Source: an uncultured Opitutia bacterium | GTDB taxonomy: Bacteria; Verrucomicrobiota; Verrucomicrobiia; Opitutales; UBA953 | Assembly: GCA_903850885.1 (NCBI GenBank) | Contig: CAINMU010000074.1 | Span: 1-49,762 of the forward strand | Direction: 5' to 3' | DNA length: 49,762 bases | Shown here: in pieces, positions 35,084 through 49,762 of the stretch | Numbering within the stretch: position 1 is the first letter of the stretch | How the letters are laid out: every line of letters starts with the position of its first letter | Made by a program: the position numbers and the translations under genes | Notes under the pieces: model-generated | The model's database searches: none | What the model saw: the letters and a program-made list of their open reading frames with translations, nothing else | What the model was told of the DNA's origin: nothing

Positions 35084-35174
35084 AGGGAGAGATTTCTAAG
35101 TTCGGGGGCGGGGCGCAAGCGGAACCCACGAGCCTGGAAACTTTACCGTTCTTGACAAGAAAGGGGGCGTGCCC

Positions 35175-35230
35175 AAGGTAAAACGCAGTTCACCTTTACC
35201 GAGGTGGGCCCGTCTGGGCCCGCTTTTTTT
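35175..35230 (+). promoter_or_regulatory. Predicted transcription attenuator in the nusA leader
   Basis: Upstream of nusA are three overlapping hairpins. Hairpin A pairs GGTAAA (35177-35182) with TTTACC (35195-35200). Hairpin B pairs CACCT (35191-35195) with AGGTG (35202-35206) and cannot form with A. A terminator stem (GTGGGCCC with GGGCCCGC, 35204-35223) followed by seven T shares bases with B. This three-state layout is typical of attenuation. A TTGACA at 35152-35157 could be the -35 box, but no convincing -10 was found. Attenuators are known upstream of rimP-nusA-infB operons (rimP leader). Confidence 0.6.
35204..35230 (+). terminator. Intrinsic terminator 38 bases upstream of nusA
   Basis: An 8-bp stem (GTGGGCCC with GGGCCCGC, one G-U pair) with a GTCT loop is followed by seven T. 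No plus-strand gene lies between the divergent ettA start and this point, so it can only act on the nusA leader transcript. Confidence 0.85.
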
Positions 35231-35267
35231 GTCCCTAAATCATTTCACCGCCAACACCGCATATACC

Positions 35268-36515
35268 ATGAGCGTCGACATCAAACAATTCCTCCAATAC
35301 CTCGAAAAAGAGAAGCACATCCCCAAGGATGAAGCCTGCGCTCTCATCGTCGAGGCCATCAAATCCTCCGTCGAGAAGTCGGTCATGTCCGGACAAAACG
35401 TCGACATTACCGCCGACCCCGTCTCCGGTAAGCTCGAGGCCTACGTCATCTATAAGGTGACCGATGCCGTCTCGGACCCCCTCCAGGAGATGAACCCGGT
35501 CTCAGCCGTGGCCTTCCGCGCCGACGCCAAGGTCGGCGAAGAGATCCGCAAGCCCATCAACGTCGCTGACCTCGGTCGTATCGCGGCCAAGACCACGCAG
35601 CAGCTTCTCAATCAACGCTTCCGCAAAATCGAGAAAGACCAAGTCTTCCAAGAGTATAAGGACAAGGTCGGCGATATCGTCACCGGCATCGTGCGTCGCA
35701 CCGAGCGCGGTAACGTCATCATCGAACTCGGCACCGCCGAGGCCGTACTCACTCACAAGGAACGCTGCCACGGCGACGAGTTCCGTACCGGCGATCGTAT
35801 CCGCTGCCTCCTTCTGGAAATCCGCGACGACCCACAGCGGGGTCGCGAGTTCGTTCTCTCCCGCGCCAACCCGCAATTCGTCCGCCGCCTCCTCGAGCTC
35901 GAAGTCGCGGAAATCGCCGACAAGACCGTCACCATCGCTGCCATGGCGCGCGACCCGGGTTACCGCACCAAAATCGCCGTTGATTCGCGCGATCCTAAGG
36001 TCGACCCCGTGGGCGCCTGCGTCGGTGCTCGTGGTGCTCGAGTGCGCAACATCGTCAAGGAATTGGGCGGAGAAAAAATTGATATCATCCGCTACCATCC
36101 TGAGCCGCTCAAGCTCTTGGAAGAAGCCATCCGCCCGGCCCGTCCGCGCAATGTCCGCATCGACGAACGTACCCGTTCGATCTTCTTCGAAGTAGACGAA
36201 GACGACATGCGCATCGCCATCGGCAGCAAAGGCCGCAACGCCCGCCTGACCTCCAAGCTCATGGGCTGGGGCCTCAACATCTCCAAGTCCACCCACAGCG
36301 AACAAAGCTTCGAAGCCAAAGCTGGCGACGTCGCCGTTCGTCTGGCCGAACAACTCGGCGTCAGCCCGGAGCTGATCGCGAAGTTCGTCGGCCTGGGTAT
36401 CTCGGGACTCGAAGCCTTTGAAGGCACCACGGTTGAAGACTTTAAGGAAAGCGGCATCCCGACCGAAGAAGTCGAAGCCGTCCTCGCCGCCGTCGCCAAG
36501 ACGCGTAAGGCCTAA
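35268..36515 (+). CDS. nusA: Transcription termination/antitermination factor NusA
   Basis: This 415-residue protein has an N-terminal RNA polymerase-binding domain (1-130; LLNQRFRKIEKDQVFQEYKD at its end), an S1 domain (~135-200; VTGIVRRTERGNVIIELG) and two KH domains (DPKVDPVGACVGARGARV at ~240 and IAIGSKGRNARLTSK at ~320). A C-terminal helical repeat follows. NusA binds nascent RNA and elongating polymerase, promoting pausing and termination or, with Nus factors, antitermination. The start at 35268 was chosen over an upstream in-frame GTG, which would put the leader terminator inside the gene. infB follows 47 bases later. No rimP gene precedes it. Confidence 0.95.
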   Translation: MSVDIKQFLQYLEKEKHIPKDEACALIVEAIKSSVEKSVMSGQNVDITADPVSGKLEAYVIYKVTDAVSDPLQEMNPVSAVAFRADAKVGEEIRKPINVADLGRIAAKTTQQLLNQRFRKIEKDQVFQEYKDKVGDIVTGIVRRTERGNVIIELGTAEAVLTHKERCHGDEFRTGDRIRCLLLEIRDDPQRGREFVLSRANPQFVRRLLELEVAEIADKTVTIAAMARDPGYRTKIAVDSRDPKVDPVGACVGARGARVRNIVKELGGEKIDIIRYHPEPLKLLEEAIRPARPRNVRIDERTRSIFFEVDEDDMRIAIGSKGRNARLTSKLMGWGLNISKSTHSEQSFEAKAGDVAVRLAEQLGVSPELIAKFVGLGISGLEAFEGTTVEDFKESGIPTEEVEAVLAAVAKTRKA

Positions 36516-36562
36516 TTTCCTTATTTTCTTAAGACCTATCGCCGCAACTATCGAACGAGCAC

Positions 36563-38965
36563 ATGACCGAGAAGAAGAAAAAGCCTGAAGCCAAGAAAGC
36601 AGTTGCGCCCCAACGTTACAGCGACGTCGCCAAAGATCTGGGACTCGAGGTCAAGGCCCTCATCGCCTTGGTTGATCAATTCGTAGAAGTACAGCCGGAA
36701 TGGAGAGACTACGTTTACTCCGAAGGAAAAAAGCCCGCCGCCTCGAGTAATTTTGGCAAGACCTATCGTGAGGCGTTCATGACCTTCGCGGAAGATAAGT
36801 TGCCGAAGAAAACACCGGAACCGGAAATCGTCGTGGCTCCTGAGCCCGTCAAGCCAGTCGTAGTTGAAGCCCCGAAGCCAGTGGCGCCGAAGGCGAATAC
36901 GCCCACGCCGGTTAGCTTGCCCCCTCGCCCGACGATGGCTCCGCCTCCCGTCAGCCTACCGCCCCGCCCTCCGGTCATTCCAGCGCGCCCGATTGCGCCG
37001 ACCCCGAGCCGCTCAGATTTTCCTCCCGTCGTCATCAATTCGCCGACACCGCCACCGGTTCGCCCGCCGAACATGCCGCCCGTTCGTCCGCCCATGACGG
37101 CCCCCGTGGTCAATCGTCCTACCGCCACCGGCAGCCAAGTCGCACCAGGCAGCAAGGGGACCATCACGGTCCGCCCTCCCATCGTCGTGCGCGACTTCGC
37201 CATCGCACTCAACCTCAAGCCATTTCAGGTCATCGGCAATCTGATGGAATTGAACAAAGTTGTCAGCGTGACTTCCGTCATCGAAGAAGCCGACGCCCGC
37301 AAGGTGGCCGAGCGCCATGGTTATACTTTAGAAATTCGCCACCGCGGCGAAGGCGTCCAAGCCGTTAAGAAAGTCGAGAAGCCCGCCGAAGACGATCCGG
37401 CGCTGCTAACTGTACGTCCGCCAGTTGTTTGCGTACTGGGTCACGTCGACCACGGTAAGACGACTCTGCTCGACTATTTCCGCAAGACCAACGTTGTCGC
37501 GGGCGAAGCTGGCGGCATCACCCAGCACATCGGCGCCTACTCCGTGGCCTACCAGGGCGAGAAGCCTGAGTACAAAGGACGGACCGTCACTTTCCTCGAC
37601 ACCCCGGGTCACGCCGCTTTCGCCAAAATGCGCGAGCGTGGTGCCAGCGTGACCGATATCGCCGTCCTCGTCGTCGCCGCCGATGACGGTTTCATGCCCC
37701 AGACCGAAGAGGCTTTGAAATTCGCCCAGAAGCATGCCGGCTCCATCGTGGCGGCGATCAACAAGGTCGACGCCAAGGGTGCCAACATCGATCGCGTTAA
37801 GCAGCAGATGCAGCAGCGCGGCATCACCCCGGAAGACTGGGGCGGCGAAGTCATCACGAGTCCCGTCTCCGCACTTAAAGGAACGGGCATGAATGAATTG
37901 ATCGAATCCATTCTTCTGCAGGCCGAAGTCCTCGACCTGAAGGCTAATCCGAAATGTCCCGCCCAAGGCGTGGTCATCGAATCACAGATGGAAACGGGCC
38001 GCGGACCAACCGCGACCGTCATCGTGCAAAAGGGCACCCTGAAAACGGGAGACTCTTTTGTCTGCGGCGAAACCTGGTGCAAAGTCCGCGCCCTGATGGA
38101 TGAGCATGGCACCCGGATGCCCAGCGTCAGCCCTGGCCGCCCGGCTCTTGTCTTAGGTTGGGACGCCGTCCCAGCGCCCGGCACCAAATTCCAGACCGTC
38201 AAGAACGACCGCGAAGCTCGCGAGATCGCCGAAGAGGCTGCTCTCGCCGGTCGCAAGCTCGCCGAATCCCAACAGTTGGCGCCTAACACGGGTGCCCGCC
38301 CTGGCATGTCAGACCTCGAGCGCTTGATGGCTGCCCTCGACAAAGATAAGGAAAAGATTCTCCGCGTCCTACTTAAGGCCGACGTCAATGGCACCCTCGA
38401 AGCTCTCGAAGGTTGCTTGCTTGAAATCAAGTCGACCAAGGTGCGCCTCGAAATCGTCGGGGGTTCCGTCGGACCGGTCACCCAAAGCGATGCCGATTTG
38501 GCTGCCGCAGCGAAGGCCTCCATCGTCGCCTTCGACACCAAGGTGGACAACGGCGTGCAGGCGCAACTCAAGCGCACCGCCGTCCGCCTGATTACGCATG
38601 ACATCATTTACGAACTCATCACCCTTGTGAAAGAGGCGATGGCTGAGATGCTCGACCCCGAAGTCCGCGAAAGCAAGCTGGGTGCCGCCGAAGTACGCGC
38701 CGTCTTCCCGCAGGGCAAGGAACACAAGGTCGCCGGTTGTATGGTCACCGAAGGCCTTATCCGCCGTGCCGCCAAGGCCCGCGTGGTGCGCAACGGCAAG
38801 ATCATCCACAATGGACCGGTCGAAACGTTGCGTCGCTTCAAGGACGATGCTTCCGAAGTCAAAGCGGGCTTCGAATGCGGCATCAAGCTCGGCGGTTACG
38901 ACGAGTATCAGCCGGGTGACATCATTGAGGCCGTCGAGATGCTTCAGATTCGTCCCAGCCTTTAA
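36563..38965 (+). CDS. infB: Translation initiation factor IF-2
   Basis: This 800-residue GTPase brings initiator tRNA to the ribosome. The N-terminus has a small IF2_N-like region (SDVAKDLGLEVKALIALVDQ), then a strikingly proline-rich linker (~85-205, with repeats such as SLPPRP and PPPVRPP). The GTPase domain has G1 GHVDHGKT (293-300), G3 DTPGHAAF and G4 NKVD. The C-terminal domains II-IV end GYDEYQPGDIIEAVEML. Poly-proline runs make it a likely EF-P client (inference). It lies in the nusA-infB-rbfA order, with rbfA 5 bases downstream. Confidence 0.96.
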   Translation: MTEKKKKPEAKKAVAPQRYSDVAKDLGLEVKALIALVDQFVEVQPEWRDYVYSEGKKPAASSNFGKTYREAFMTFAEDKLPKKTPEPEIVVAPEPVKPVVVEAPKPVAPKANTPTPVSLPPRPTMAPPPVSLPPRPPVIPARPIAPTPSRSDFPPVVINSPTPPPVRPPNMPPVRPPMTAPVVNRPTATGSQVAPGSKGTITVRPPIVVRDFAIALNLKPFQVIGNLMELNKVVSVTSVIEEADARKVAERHGYTLEIRHRGEGVQAVKKVEKPAEDDPALLTVRPPVVCVLGHVDHGKTTLLDYFRKTNVVAGEAGGITQHIGAYSVAYQGEKPEYKGRTVTFLDTPGHAAFAKMRERGASVTDIAVLVVAADDGFMPQTEEALKFAQKHAGSIVAAINKVDAKGANIDRVKQQMQQRGITPEDWGGEVITSPVSALKGTGMNELIESILLQAEVLDLKANPKCPAQGVVIESQMETGRGPTATVIVQKGTLKTGDSFVCGETWCKVRALMDEHGTRMPSVSPGRPALVLGWDAVPAPGTKFQTVKNDREAREIAEEAALAGRKLAESQQLAPNTGARPGMSDLERLMAALDKDKEKILRVLLKADVNGTLEALEGCLLEIKSTKVRLEIVGGSVGPVTQSDADLAAAAKASIVAFDTKVDNGVQAQLKRTAVRLITHDIIYELITLVKEAMAEMLDPEVRESKLGAAEVRAVFPQGKEHKVAGCMVTEGLIRRAAKARVVRNGKIIHNGPVETLRRFKDDASEVKAGFECGIKLGGYDEYQPGDIIEAVEMLQIRPSL

Positions 38966-38970
38966 ACGAA

Positions 38971-39333
38971 ATGTCGCAACGTCAGCTCCGGGTCGCCGAA
39001 TTGGTCCAACGCGAAGTCTCTTCTGCGTTGCGTCAAGGCTGGGGCAACGAAGCGGCGCTCATCACCATCACGCGCGCCAACGTCTCGCCTGACCTCCGTC
39101 AGGTACGCGTCGGCTTTGCGGTCGCCGGCGATGACGCCGCGAAAAAGGCCGCTCGCACTTTGCTTAAACGGATCCGCAACGAGATTCGCGCCACGGTCGG
39201 CGGCATCTTGCAGATGAAGAATACGCCCGAACTCAGTTTCGCTGAAGATGATGTGACGGGCGGAGTCGCTCGCGTCCAGGCCATGCTCGATGACTTATCG
39301 CGCAAGGATGGGACGACCCCGAAATACGACTAA
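38971..39333 (+). CDS. rbfA: Ribosome-binding factor A
   Basis: This 120-residue KH-like protein is needed for late maturation of the 30S subunit and 16S rRNA 5' end. It has RVAELVQREVSSALRQGW at the N-terminus, TITRANVSPDLRQVRVGFAV in the centre and the C-terminal TPELSFAEDDV motif. It starts 5 bases after the infB stop, as in most bacteria. Its last four bases overlap the mcsB stop on the other strand. Confidence 0.93.
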   Translation: MSQRQLRVAELVQREVSSALRQGWGNEAALITITRANVSPDLRQVRVGFAVAGDDAAKKAARTLLKRIRNEIRATVGGILQMKNTPELSFAEDDVTGGVARVQAMLDDLSRKDGTTPKYD

Positions 39334-40403
39334 GCCGTCGGTGGTCCGGGTTCAGGGAATTCGCGTAACGCCTCGCGCACGACGGATGCCCGACGCAGAT
39401 CTCGTCCGTCGCTGTCCAGTTCGCCGCCCTGCCGCATCTGCACGTGGGCCGGCTGGCCCTCAATCATCAGACGGTCCACGATATGACGACGCTCTTCGGG
39501 CAGGCAGCCCATATCACAGGCCAGGCGAAGGTGAGATAACATGTTCATCGACTCCGCGCTCGTGAGCAGACGGGCATAACGCAATACGCCTAAGGAACGA
39601 GAGAGCCGATCGACGAACTTATCGCCCTCTTCCGTCGCGAGCTTACGACGCGCATTCCATTCCTGTTCGACGACATTCTTGATCCAACCGCCGAGGTGGC
39701 GCAGGATGGCATCTTCGGAAAGCCCTAAGGTCTGCTGATTAGATATTTGGAAGATATTACCGGCGGCCTCCGTGCCCTCGCCCAGCCAACCGCGGACCGC
39801 GAGCCCATCCTGGCTTAAGGCACGCGAAACTTTCTCCATGTGACCGGCCAGGCAAAGCCCGGGCAGATGGACCATCGCCGAGGCACGTAAACCCGTGCCG
39901 ACATTGGTCGGACAGGCGGTCAGGTAGCCGAGCTTTTCCGAGAAAGCGAATTTGAGATCGGGCCCAAGGGCATCATCCAATTGCTCGGCGATATTCCAGG
40001 TTCCGCGGAGATGCCAGCCGGCCTTCACGACCTGGATCCGCAGGTGGTCTTCTTCATTAATCATCACCGAACAGGTCTGGTCCTTACTGATCACCGCTGC
40101 CCCGAATTTACCGGAAGCAAGTTCCTTGGAAACCAAATGGCGCTCGACCAATACTGCCCGGTCCAAATCGGTTAATTCCCCCATCCGTAAGACGTGCCCG
40201 CGCCGAAACTTCGGCGAGCGGTTAAGCGCCTCGACGCAGCGTTCGGCGATCTCTTTCCGTTGCGGCACTTTCGCCCAACCCGGGAAAGGCATCCCGTCCA
40301 GATTGCGGGCCAGCCGAATGCGCGTACTGAGCACGACCGCCTGCTGCGCACCCAACATATGGGTGAGCTCATTTTCAGCGGAAAGGATGTCTTGGACGGA
40401 CAT
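39330..40403 (-). CDS. mcsB: Protein arginine kinase McsB
   Basis: This 357-residue protein is related to guanidino kinases and phosphorylates arginines on proteins, marking them for ClpCP degradation in Bacillus. It shows LSTRIRLARNLDGMPFPGW, MINEEDHLRIQVV, the active-site Cys164 in CPTNVGTGLRASAM, and the C-terminal phospho-arginine pocket motif RDLRRA near residue 335. The start is one base after the mcsA stop, so the two form an operon. A ClpC gene lies about 8 kb away on the same strand. No CtsR repressor gene is in the window. Confidence 0.93.
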   Translation of the reverse strand: MSVQDILSAENELTHMLGAQQAVVLSTRIRLARNLDGMPFPGWAKVPQRKEIAERCVEALNRSPKFRRGHVLRMGELTDLDRAVLVERHLVSKELASGKFGAAVISKDQTCSVMINEEDHLRIQVVKAGWHLRGTWNIAEQLDDALGPDLKFAFSEKLGYLTACPTNVGTGLRASAMVHLPGLCLAGHMEKVSRALSQDGLAVRGWLGEGTEAAGNIFQISNQQTLGLSEDAILRHLGGWIKNVVEQEWNARRKLATEEGDKFVDRLSRSLGVLRYARLLTSAESMNMLSHLRLACDMGCLPEERRHIVDRLMIEGQPAHVQMRQGGELDSDGRDLRRASVVREALREFPEPGPPTA

Positions 40404-40404
40404 A

Positions 40405-40887
40405 TCAAGAATGACGGAGTTGGAGTTCTAATTGGGCGATTTCGTCACGTAAGCGAGCGGCACCTTCAAAATCTTCGGCGGCGATGGCGACCTCCATCTC
40501 CGTGCGAGCGACTTCGAGGCGGTGTCGCAACTGCCCGACGGGGGCGACGCCCACGGGCGCCCGCCCGACGTGGGTCGCTTCGTGCTGCACCTTGATCAAG
40601 AGCCCGCCGAGCGCGTCGCCGAACGTCTTCCAACAATCCGGGCAACCCAGCCGACCGCGCTTGCGAAAGTCGATATCCGTAAACCCGCAATGCGGACAAA
40701 TCAGCGACGGCGCCACGGCCGGCGCGATTAAGGCATCGGCCAGTTGGAATATCGCCGGATCGGTAGCGCCGCCCTTTTGCGCACAAGCCTCGCATAGATG
40801 CACCTTCGTGACCTTCCCCTGAACGACCTGGGAAAGGTGAACGGTGGCGGCCTCCTCGCAAAGCGAACACTTGAGCGGCTGGGACAT
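40405..40887 (-). CDS. mcsA: McsA-like zinc-finger/UvrB-UvrC motif protein
   Basis: This 160-residue protein has four CxxC pairs: CSLC and CEAC near the N-terminus, then CPHC and CPDC at ~65-90, forming treble-clef-like zinc sites. A UVR motif lies at the C-terminus (LRHRLEVARTEMEVAIAAED, then AARLRDEIAQLE). In Bacillus, McsA is the activator of the McsB kinase. The ATG at 40887 follows eight codons opened by a TTG, which I excluded. It sits one base upstream of mcsB. Confidence 0.88.
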   Translation of the reverse strand: MSQPLKCSLCEEAATVHLSQVVQGKVTKVHLCEACAQKGGATDPAIFQLADALIAPAVAPSLICPHCGFTDIDFRKRGRLGCPDCWKTFGDALGGLLIKVQHEATHVGRAPVGVAPVGQLRHRLEVARTEMEVAIAAEDFEGAARLRDEIAQLELQLRHS

Positions 40888-40984: not shown

Positions 40985-42226
40985 ATGTCCTCCAAACCCC
41001 GCATTGTCATCACTGGGCTAGGCCTAACCGCCCCCAACGGCAACTCCCTCCAAGAGTTTCGGGCCAACCTGCTCGCCGGCAAGGCGCGGATCGCCGAAAT
41101 CGAGGTTCGCCACATGGGCAAACACCCTGCCGGGGTCTGCGACTTTGATGCGACCAAATGGCAGAAGCGGAAGGAGATTCGGAATGGCACCCGCGTCGGT
41201 TCGATTTCGATTTTCTGTGCCCGCGAAGCCCTCGGCAGTTCCGGACTCGATTGGGACAAGGTAGATAAATCCCGCGTCGGCGTCTACCTTGGCATCACCG
41301 AGCACGGCAACGTCGAGACCGAGAATGAGATTTTCAATATCGCCCAATTCGGTAACGATACGAAATATTGGACGCACCACCATAATCCTCGAACGGTGGC
41401 GAATAATCCTGCGGGAGAAGTAACCATGAACATGGGCATCACGGGCCCGCACTACACGATCGGCGCCGCCTGTGCGGCAGGTAATGCCGGCCTGATCCAA
41501 GCGGCGCAAATGCTCCAGCTCGGGGAAGTCGACCTGGCCTTTGCGGGTGGCGTCTCTGAGTCCATTCATACCTTCGGCATTTTTGCCGGTTTCAAGAATC
41601 AAGGCGCCCTCGGTGCGCACGAAGACCCCAACAAGGCTTCGCGTCCTTTTGATAAAAACCGCAACGGCATCGTCATTTCAGAAGGAGGCGCGATTTACAT
41701 TTTGGAACGCCTCGACGACGCCCTGGCCCGCGGAGCACCTATCATCGCTGAAATCGCTGGCTGGTGCATCAACTCCGACGCCACTGACGCCGTGCTCCCG
41801 AATCCGGAACGCCAGGCTGAATGCGTGCAGATGGCCCTTAAACGGGCTGGCATGAAGCCGCAGGACATTCAGATCGTCTCCACCCACGCCACGGCGACCG
41901 CCTTAGGCGACATCCAGGAATGTACCGCCTTGCGATCGGTCTTCGCCGGCTGCCCCGAGACCAAGGTCAACAATACCAAGAGCTTTATCGGCCATTGCAT
42001 GGGTGCGGCGGGCGCGCTCGAATTGGCGGGCAATATACCCTCTTTTGACGATAATTGGGTGCATCCGACCATCAATATCGACGAATTAGACCCCGAATGC
42101 GACATGCCTGGGCTGGTTATTAACCATCCCATCAAAGTTGAGAGGGTAAACGCCATCCTGAATAACTCCTTTGGCATGCTTGGAATCAATTCTGCCCTGA
42201 TCGTTAAGAAATATGGGGTTGCCTGA
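40985..42226 (+). CDS. Beta-ketoacyl-ACP synthase (FabF-like)
   Basis: This 413-residue ketosynthase has the full catalytic triad: Cys163 in GAACAAGNAG, His301 in STHATATALGD and His337 in IGHCMGAAGA. The thiolase fold condenses malonyl-ACP with an acyl chain. The N-terminus (RIVITGLGLTAPNGNSLQEF) and length fit the FabF/KAS II family. It is followed within 40 bases by a separate acyl carrier protein gene and then a terminator. Because only these two genes form the unit, it could be either a housekeeping FabF or a dedicated pair for a special lipid; the sequence does not decide. Confidence 0.9.
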   Translation: MSSKPRIVITGLGLTAPNGNSLQEFRANLLAGKARIAEIEVRHMGKHPAGVCDFDATKWQKRKEIRNGTRVGSISIFCAREALGSSGLDWDKVDKSRVGVYLGITEHGNVETENEIFNIAQFGNDTKYWTHHHNPRTVANNPAGEVTMNMGITGPHYTIGAACAAGNAGLIQAAQMLQLGEVDLAFAGGVSESIHTFGIFAGFKNQGALGAHEDPNKASRPFDKNRNGIVISEGGAIYILERLDDALARGAPIIAEIAGWCINSDATDAVLPNPERQAECVQMALKRAGMKPQDIQIVSTHATATALGDIQECTALRSVFAGCPETKVNNTKSFIGHCMGAAGALELAGNIPSFDDNWVHPTINIDELDPECDMPGLVINHPIKVERVNAILNNSFGMLGINSALIVKKYGVA

Positions 42227-48916: not shown

Positions 48917-49762
48917 TTAGGTACCCGCGTCGGCACCGCTCTTCTTCTGCGTAAAGACGAGCCCCTTGTCGCCCACCGACACGATGACGGGCTCTTCCTT
49001 ATTAAATTCAGAACGCAGGATGGATTCAGCCAGCGGATCTTCCAGCAAACGCTCGACGGCACGACGCAACGGACGGGCACCATACTTTTCGTCCCAGCCG
49101 TTCTCGACCAAGTAGCCGCGGGCGGCCTCGTTGACCACAAGCTTGACGCCCAGATCGAGCAGACGCTTGGCCACTTTCGCGACCTCGATATCGACGATCT
49201 TGGTCATGTGCTCCTTTGCAAGCTGCTGGAAAATGACGATGTCCGTGAGGCGGTTAAGGAACTCGGGCTTAAAGGCACGCTTAGTCTCATCCATGATGCG
49301 TTCCTTGAGCTTCTCGTAGTCGCGCGTCGAACTGACGCCGACATCGAAGCCGACGGAGTTATTGCGCTGTAGGACATCGGCTCCAACGTTCGAAGTCATG
49401 ATGATGATCGTATTCCGGAAATCCACCACCCGACCCAAGGAGTCGGTCAAACGACCGTCTTCCAAGGCCTGCAGCAGAAGCTGGATGACATCAGGGTGGG
49501 CTTTTTCGATTTCGTCGAAAAGCACCACGGAATAGGGCTTCCGCCGCACCGCTTCGGTAAGCTGGCCGCCTTCGTCGTGACCGACGTAGCCGGGAGGCGA
49601 GCCGATGAGACGCGAGACGGTGAATTTCTCCATGTACTCGGACATATCGATCTGGATGACAGCTTCGCTTTCGCCGAACATGCGCTCCGCCAATGAACGA
49701 GCCAGAAGCGTCTTACCCACGCCGGTCGGGCCCAGGAAGAGGAAGGAGCCGATGGGACGGCG
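48917..49762 (-). CDS. clpC: ATP-dependent Clp protease ATP-binding subunit ClpC, C-terminal part (partial)
   Basis: The frame is open from the stop at 48917 to the right edge (281 codons), so the N-terminus is outside the window. It is the second AAA+ module: Walker A GPTGVGKTLLA at the edge, GSPPGYVGHDEGGQLTEAVR, Walker B VVLFDEIEKAHPD, sensor segment TIIIMTSNVGADVLQ, FKPEFLNRLTDIVIF with the arginine finger, and the C-terminal YGARPLRRAVERLLEDPLAE. The sequence resembles ClpC rather than ClpB (DEGGQLTEAVRRKPYSVVLF). ClpC unfolds proteins for ClpP. With mcsA-mcsB 8 kb away it likely receives arginine-phosphorylated clients. Confidence 0.88.
   Translation of the reverse strand, partial: RRPIGSFLFLGPTGVGKTLLARSLAERMFGESEAVIQIDMSEYMEKFTVSRLIGSPPGYVGHDEGGQLTEAVRRKPYSVVLFDEIEKAHPDVIQLLLQALEDGRLTDSLGRVVDFRNTIIIMTSNVGADVLQRNNSVGFDVGVSSTRDYEKLKERIMDETKRAFKPEFLNRLTDIVIFQQLAKEHMTKIVDIEVAKVAKRLLDLGVKLVVNEAARGYLVENGWDEKYGARPLRRAVERLLEDPLAESILRSEFNKEEPVIVSVGDKGLVFTQKKSGADAGT

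Follow-up and report, generated by a model that had tools for sequence, protein, structure and literature searches.

McsA and McsB form a tagging system for protein degradation that is best known from Bacillus, and the presence of both genes on a contig from an uncultured Opitutia bacterium (Verrucomicrobiota) raises the question of whether they encode a working arginine kinase in this lineage, and what has become of McsB among its relatives. The window analyzed here, 49,762 nucleotides in length, is the whole of one contig (C74) from a 2.34 Mb genome assembled in 152 contigs.

Both genes lie on the minus strand. The mcsA gene (40405–40887), with its ATG at 40887 and its end at 40405, encodes a 160-residue zinc-finger activator of McsB with CxxC pairs at residues 7, 32, 64, and 82 and a C-terminal UVR motif; in the solved complex 8wtb, it is the McsA chain that this protein matches (E = 7.5e-23). 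A single base separates its stop from the start of mcsB (39330–40403), whose 357-residue product, annotated as the protein-arginine kinase, matches Pfam PF00217 (E = 9e-63) and aligns over residues 18–347 with residues 22–354 of the solved Geobacillus McsB 6fh1 (E = 2e-78). We scored ten positions that count as catalytic in arginine kinase and McsB work; all ten, including C164, are as in the set of proteins with an intact site (active-type below). The alignment with 6fh1 also reveals the C-terminal dimerization domain with its phospho-arginine (pArg) pocket R-D-x-x-R, formed in the window protein by R334, D335, and R338 within RDLRRA (334–339). In B. subtilis McsB, the pocket residues are Arg337, Asp338, and Arg341, according to the available portion of PMC8370763. 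The first-pass annotation had reported an intact McsA–McsB pair with Cys164, RDLRRA, and four CxxC pairs, and we confirm it at these positions and residues. We predict, with considerable confidence, that mcsB codes for a functional protein-arginine kinase and mcsA for the zinc-binding protein that activates it.

Neither protein reaches the cut-offs of the NCBIfam models. McsB scores 371.9 of 385 bits for NF002194 and 352.7 of 500 for NF053707, and McsA 97.8 of 210; such a cut-off is a naming threshold that carries no biochemical criterion, and that of NF002194 is passed by 148 of the 288 genomes of the phylum. A further difference from B. subtilis concerns assembly, since phospho-Arg194 holds the B. 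subtilis McsB octamer together (PMC8370763, available portion). The positions aligned with Arg190 and Arg194 are Gly187 and Lys191 in the window protein, and among the 73 active-type McsBs (72 relatives and the window) each of the two positions is arginine only once. Because the aligned residue is a lysine, octamer assembly by the phospho-Arg194 route is unlikely in the window McsB. We also note that the pArg pocket is changed in 7 of the 73 active-type proteins despite an intact catalytic site. Two of the seven (G149 and G175; L039, L040) come from the one further genus of the window's family in the sample; they keep all ten catalytic residues, their pocket R-D has become E-N, and the allosteric phospho-arginine site is apparently gone. 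The allosteric part of McsB is thus not stable in that genus.

The surroundings of the pair differ from the class III operon order ctsR–mcsA–mcsB–clpC, with clpC directly behind mcsB, which is not seen in the window. The genes nusA, infB, and rbfA stand in a row on the plus strand (35169–39333), and the ends of rbfA and mcsB overlap by four bases on opposite strands. On the other side, a FabF-like ketosynthase gene (40985–42226, plus strand) begins divergently about 100 bases from mcsA, and the two may therefore share a promoter region. The first-pass annotation placed clpC nearby on the same strand; the strand holds, but what lies at 48917–49762 (minus strand) is only the 3′ part of the gene, 8 kb away and upstream instead of downstream of mcsAB. 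Plus-strand ORFs intervene over these 8 kb (the ketosynthase, one without a Pfam match, and a 3′–5′ exonuclease), so that mcsAB and clpC form no operon. The fragment encodes the last 281 residues, with AAA_2 and D2-small domains, and its best-scoring NCBIfam model is ClpB, no ClpC model being in the list. The remainder, a frame of 703 residues on contig C125, carries two Clp_N repeats, two GTEH motifs, a UVR motif, and AAA domains, a set that fits ClpC despite the ClpB model; the glutamate of GTEH in the N-domain is the pArg-binding residue. Within clpC, window positions 49416–49762 overlap positions 1–347 of C125 with 17 mismatches in 347 bases, while the 115 amino acids compared are identical. 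Since the contig ends differ in DNA yet agree in protein, the assembly probably mixes strains.

The other partners of a Bacillus-type pathway are encoded elsewhere in the genome. Four matches to PF00574 (ClpP) were found, two of which span the family model (E = 3.7e-80 and 1.6e-62). The search for a YwlE-type arginine phosphatase that the first-pass annotation had proposed returned four low-molecular-weight phosphatase (LMW-PTP) matches, one of which (L004) carries CTGNTCRSPMA, the YwlE-type P-loop with threonine at position 5. This gene is followed by rpiB and then glyA, an arrangement that resembles the B. subtilis order ywlE–rpiB–glyA. According to the available portion of PMC8001253, P-loop position 5 sets selectivity, with threonine for pArg (YwlE, PtpB) and isoleucine for phosphotyrosine (PtpA).

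The absence of CtsR, also claimed by the first-pass annotation, stands as a weak negative: none was found in the window's genome by a search that, among 14 control genomes, detected only that of Lactococcus and missed that of B. subtilis. When, at 14 further loci (nine from this phylum and five from other phyla), the two longest frames on the upstream side of mcsA were inspected by eye, none was recognizable as CtsR. In scans with operator patterns, we found one CtsR-operator-like match in the window against 0.6 expected, not above chance, and no CIRCE match. The simplest account of the window's lineage would be a Bacillus-type cycle in which no CtsR was found: McsB would phosphorylate arginines of damaged or regulatory proteins, the ClpC N-domain would read the phospho-arginine and pass the substrate to ClpP, and the YwlE-type phosphatase would erase the mark. 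The kinase activity, the substrates, and the targeting by ClpC are each inferred for this system.

The pair is not peculiar to this genome. McsB matches (E ≤ 0.001) occur in 281 of the 288 Verrucomicrobiota genomes; McsB is a core gene of the phylum, and the window pair is ordinary for it. The first-pass annotation saw the interest of the locus in the use of McsB by a Gram-negative-type cell, and as a novelty this does not survive these counts, nor the fact that the McsAB of Chlamydia has already been published. In the available portion of that study (PMC10128030), casein phosphorylated on arginine was degraded by the ClpC of Chlamydia together with ClpP2P1, and B. subtilis McsAB gave no help in the chaperone assay; elsewhere, ClpC overexpression raised mcsAB transcripts in Chlamydia (PMC11708050, available portion). 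When genomes were scanned with an Akkermansia ClpC query, McsB lay in the flank of 14 of 80 loci. Three of these are Akkermansia records, all with a catalytically degenerate McsB of the kind described below, and the other 11 come from nine Planctomycetota, one Omnitrophica, and one unclassified bacterium; both catalytic motifs tested are present in 11 of 11, and RDxxRA in 7 of 11.

Two other readings of the window pair can be weighed against these data. McsB, arginine kinases, and creatine kinases have a catalytic fold in common, and the enzyme could on that ground be a free-arginine (phosphagen) kinase that buffers ATP instead of a protein kinase. We consider this extremely improbable: the alignment with solved McsB covers almost the entire protein, C-terminal domain included, while the alignments with animal arginine kinases stop near residue 250, and the solved McsBs of Geobacillus, B. 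subtilis, and S. aureus are far stronger matches than the animal enzymes. In addition, mcsA adjoins the window mcsB, McsA is found in the fetched stretch of 68 of the 72 active-type relatives, and clpC comes after mcsB in many relatives. It is also very unlikely, if somewhat less so, that mcsAB was acquired horizontally from Firmicutes-like bacteria. Such a transfer has been proposed for the Chlamydia mcsAB from flanking tRNAs (PMC10128030, available portion), but here McsB is present in nearly the whole phylum and lies near clpC in the 11 planctomycete, omnitrophote, and unclassified loci, a distribution that would fit old vertical descent.

The first-pass annotation had named loss of catalytic residues in relatives as a result that would speak against its proposal. 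Such loss is absent from the window McsB and frequent elsewhere. The McsB sequences of 133 of the remaining 287 genomes were read; these comprise the 30 best-scoring genomes, low-scoring ones, and selected relatives, and are no random sample. We scored the ten positions in two alignments (MAFFT and a profile alignment), keeping the better score. Like the window protein, 72 of the 133 score 10 of 10, while 61 miss at least one catalytic residue (dead-type below): 47 score 0–2, 11 score 3–5, and one each scores 7, 8, and 9. In fact, weak-scoring McsB matches are mostly full-length frames without the catalytic residues. The 61 spread over 13 families, seven of which hold both states; the family labels are those of the tool, and monophyly is not assumed. 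The loss is uneven along the protein. Seldom kept are C164 (4 of 61), E117 (10), R28 (12), E118 (20), and R173 (22), and mostly kept are E248 (61), R252 (60), N34 (57), R338 (55), S290 (55), and G159 (54). Among the literature matches listed, drawn largely from open literature, no title or abstract opening mentions a catalytically dead McsB.

The genomic context of dead-type McsB is preserved. An McsA with at least three CxxC pairs lies in the fetched stretch of 55 of the 61 dead-type genes, as compared with 68 of the 72 active-type genes by the same measure, and in several lineages clpC stays beside a dead-type mcsB. In Akkermansia, a label taken from records L097–L099, which group with the genomes of genus g28, every one of the 23 loci fetched, 11 of them active and 12 dead-type, retains the order mcsA–mcsB–clpC. 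The 34-row ClpC tree, built without G101, G090, G104, and six f21 loci that have no ClpC in the stretch, gives the 11 active Akkermansia a supported clade of their own and puts all but one of the 12 dead-type in another; the partly decayed G096 is placed in neither with certainty. We also observe that the first GTEH of ClpC reads GAEH, a threonine-to-alanine change beside the glutamate, in 10 of the 12 dead-type Akkermansia (set L188–L196 and L097–L099) and in none of the 11 active ones; of the other two dead-type, one keeps GTEH and one shows a single motif. Since few lineages are involved, a tie between this change and dead-type McsB is suggestive only. The predicted structure of the dead-type McsB of L098 (mean pLDDT 76) matches solved McsB over 341 residues with Z = 34.4 and an rmsd of 2.7, although the input alignment includes active McsBs, which aids the fold.

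These genes might nevertheless be decaying pseudogenes under relaxed selection, which would then be silent on any second function. Signs of decay exist. Distant dead-type pairs, Akkermansia foremost, give dN/dS of 0.13–0.42 (trimmed frames; six pairs, dS 0.83–1.84), and the values of up to 0.84 that stop-to-stop frames gave before trimming, when some extended into mcsA, are superseded by the trimmed ones. Within Akkermansia, for which the dN/dS pairs are all distant, identity among dead-type McsBs falls to 30%, and mcsA evolves faster too. Six of the 61 dead-type frames are shorter than 340 residues, an in-frame TAG occurs in one of these six, that of G084, and the McsB match in G173 runs across a TGA. 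However, ten close dead-type pairs (f21, f23, f30, and f32; dS 0.06–0.77), compared over the McsB domain alone, give dN/dS of 0.05–0.18, as against 0.00–0.21 for 11 active pairs, and where the measure is reliable, that is, for close pairs, dead-type McsB is under clear constraint. Fifty-five of the 61 stop-to-stop frames reach at least 340 residues, and the retention of E248 (61 of 61), R252 (60), and R338 (55) contrasts with that of C164 (4). The adjoining McsA, the gene order conserved in all 12 dead-type Akkermansia loci, and the predicted fold of L098 argue in the same direction. We judge general decay to be unlikely, though less remote than either rival account of the window pair, and favor retention of dead-type McsB under selection.

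A writer–eraser cycle predicts that the signature of the eraser should be absent where the McsB active site is gone. We ran DNA patterns for the Thr- and Ile-type P-loops over the same 288 genomes. The McsB state was called active at 10 of 10, or by a catalytic-loop pattern where the protein had not been read (216 genomes, 143 by pattern only), and dead-type at less than 10 of 10, or for a weak match without the catalytic loop (66 genomes, 61 by sequence). A further six (G107, G132, G142, G162, G211, and G264), in which no McsB match was usable, were set aside; of these, G132 and G264 carry the Thr P-loop. The Thr P-loop occurs in 119 of 216 active-type and in 0 of 66 dead-type genomes, in accord with the prediction; broad-pattern matches in G090, G019, and G241, whose last codon is not Ser, are uncounted here and would change the figures to 121 of 216 and 1 of 66. 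None of 20,000 permutations within the seven mixed families gave so low a count, and Fisher's test, which ignores relatedness, gives p = 2.7e-19. The same split is seen in Akkermansia (11 of 12 active versus 0 of 10 dead-type) and in family f21 (5 of 5 versus 0 of 9). The Ile-type (tyrosine-type) P-loop serves as a control and is not depleted, with 101 of 216 active versus 37 of 66 dead-type genomes. Within the seven mixed families it is in fact commoner in dead-type (29 of 36) than in active genomes (39 of 81), an excess that comes mainly from f21 (8 of 9 versus 0 of 5) and f33 (9 of 11 versus 0 of 2). A Thr-to-Ile change of one phosphatase gene may have taken place in some of these genomes, although in f16 the active genomes include 17 with the Ile type and 31 of 46 with the Thr type.

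A protein search of 33 genomes gives a similar picture. Of the 12 active Akkermansia, 11 have a YwlE-like gene as a strong match (E no worse than 1.3e-37), while the ten dead-type Akkermansia show only weak LMW-PTP matches (E = 2.4e-7 or worse), with none in G193. Among the six other dead-type genomes in this search, the best phosphatase match in G249 is Ile-type, those in G055, G076, and G224 are weak, and G014 has none. In G173 (L297, L243), whose McsB is decayed (5 of 10), a YwlE-like gene remains with a drifted CTANSCRS for CTGNTCRS. These data show that an intact McsB active site and a phospho-arginine-type phosphatase are evolutionarily tied, and they lend support to arginine phosphorylation as a putatively working process in the active lineages. 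The Thr pattern is missing from 97 of the 216 active-type genomes, including all 24 sampled of family f3, which belongs to the window's order, and YwlE is therefore not always needed or has been replaced. Our confidence in the window kinase is tempered by these 97 genomes, by the unreached NCBIfam cut-offs, and by the changed pocket of G149 and G175.

Set beside known systems, the window pair resembles the McsB–McsA of Bacillus and Geobacillus (6fh1, 6tv6, 8wtb, and 8gqd) in its catalytic residues, C-terminal domain, RDxxRA pocket, and adjacent zinc-finger McsA. It differs in that no ctsR was found, clpC is not adjacent, Gly187 and Lys191 replace Arg190 and Arg194, and the NCBIfam equivalog cut-offs are unreached. 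The McsAB of Chlamydia trachomatis (CT675/CT676) shares with the window's genome an mcsAB apart from clpC, and ClpC with two ClpPs; unlike the window's genome with its YwlE-type phosphatase, the available portions of PMC10128030 and PMC11708050 contain no mention of YwlE. The window phosphatase is, like YwlE and S. aureus PtpB, an LMW-PTP with threonine at P-loop position 5, in contrast to the many active-type relatives that lack the pattern. For McsB acting without its kinase activity there is a likeness in B. subtilis, where, in the available portion of PMC5506225, oxidized McsA lets McsB remove CtsR from DNA independently of the kinase, whereas McsB stimulation of ClpC needs kinase activity. 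The B. subtilis protein, however, has an intact active site and CtsR as its target, while the active site of the dead-type relatives is gone; our CtsR search was confined to the window's genome.

Dead-type McsB is constrained, has mcsA and, in several lineages, clpC beside it, and occurs in genomes from which the Thr P-loop is absent, and on these grounds we infer that it has a function independent of the kinase. We hold it probable, with less confidence than for the window kinase, that McsB went non-catalytic several times in Verrucomicrobiota and took a kinase-independent role, most likely that of an McsA-dependent adaptor or regulator of ClpC acting via the surface of E248, R252, and R338.

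In sum, the window pair itself is less important than the comparison across the phylum that it prompted. This comparison provides controlled genomic evidence that phospho-arginine signaling is real in the Gram-negative-type Verrucomicrobiota, and both states of McsB are contained in Akkermansia, a gut genus. A kinase-free function of McsB has one precedent, from which an McsB that lacks the active site would differ markedly. The kinase-dead McsBs that are kept together with McsA and ClpC form a natural set, and thereby a test bed for roles of McsB beyond phosphorylation.
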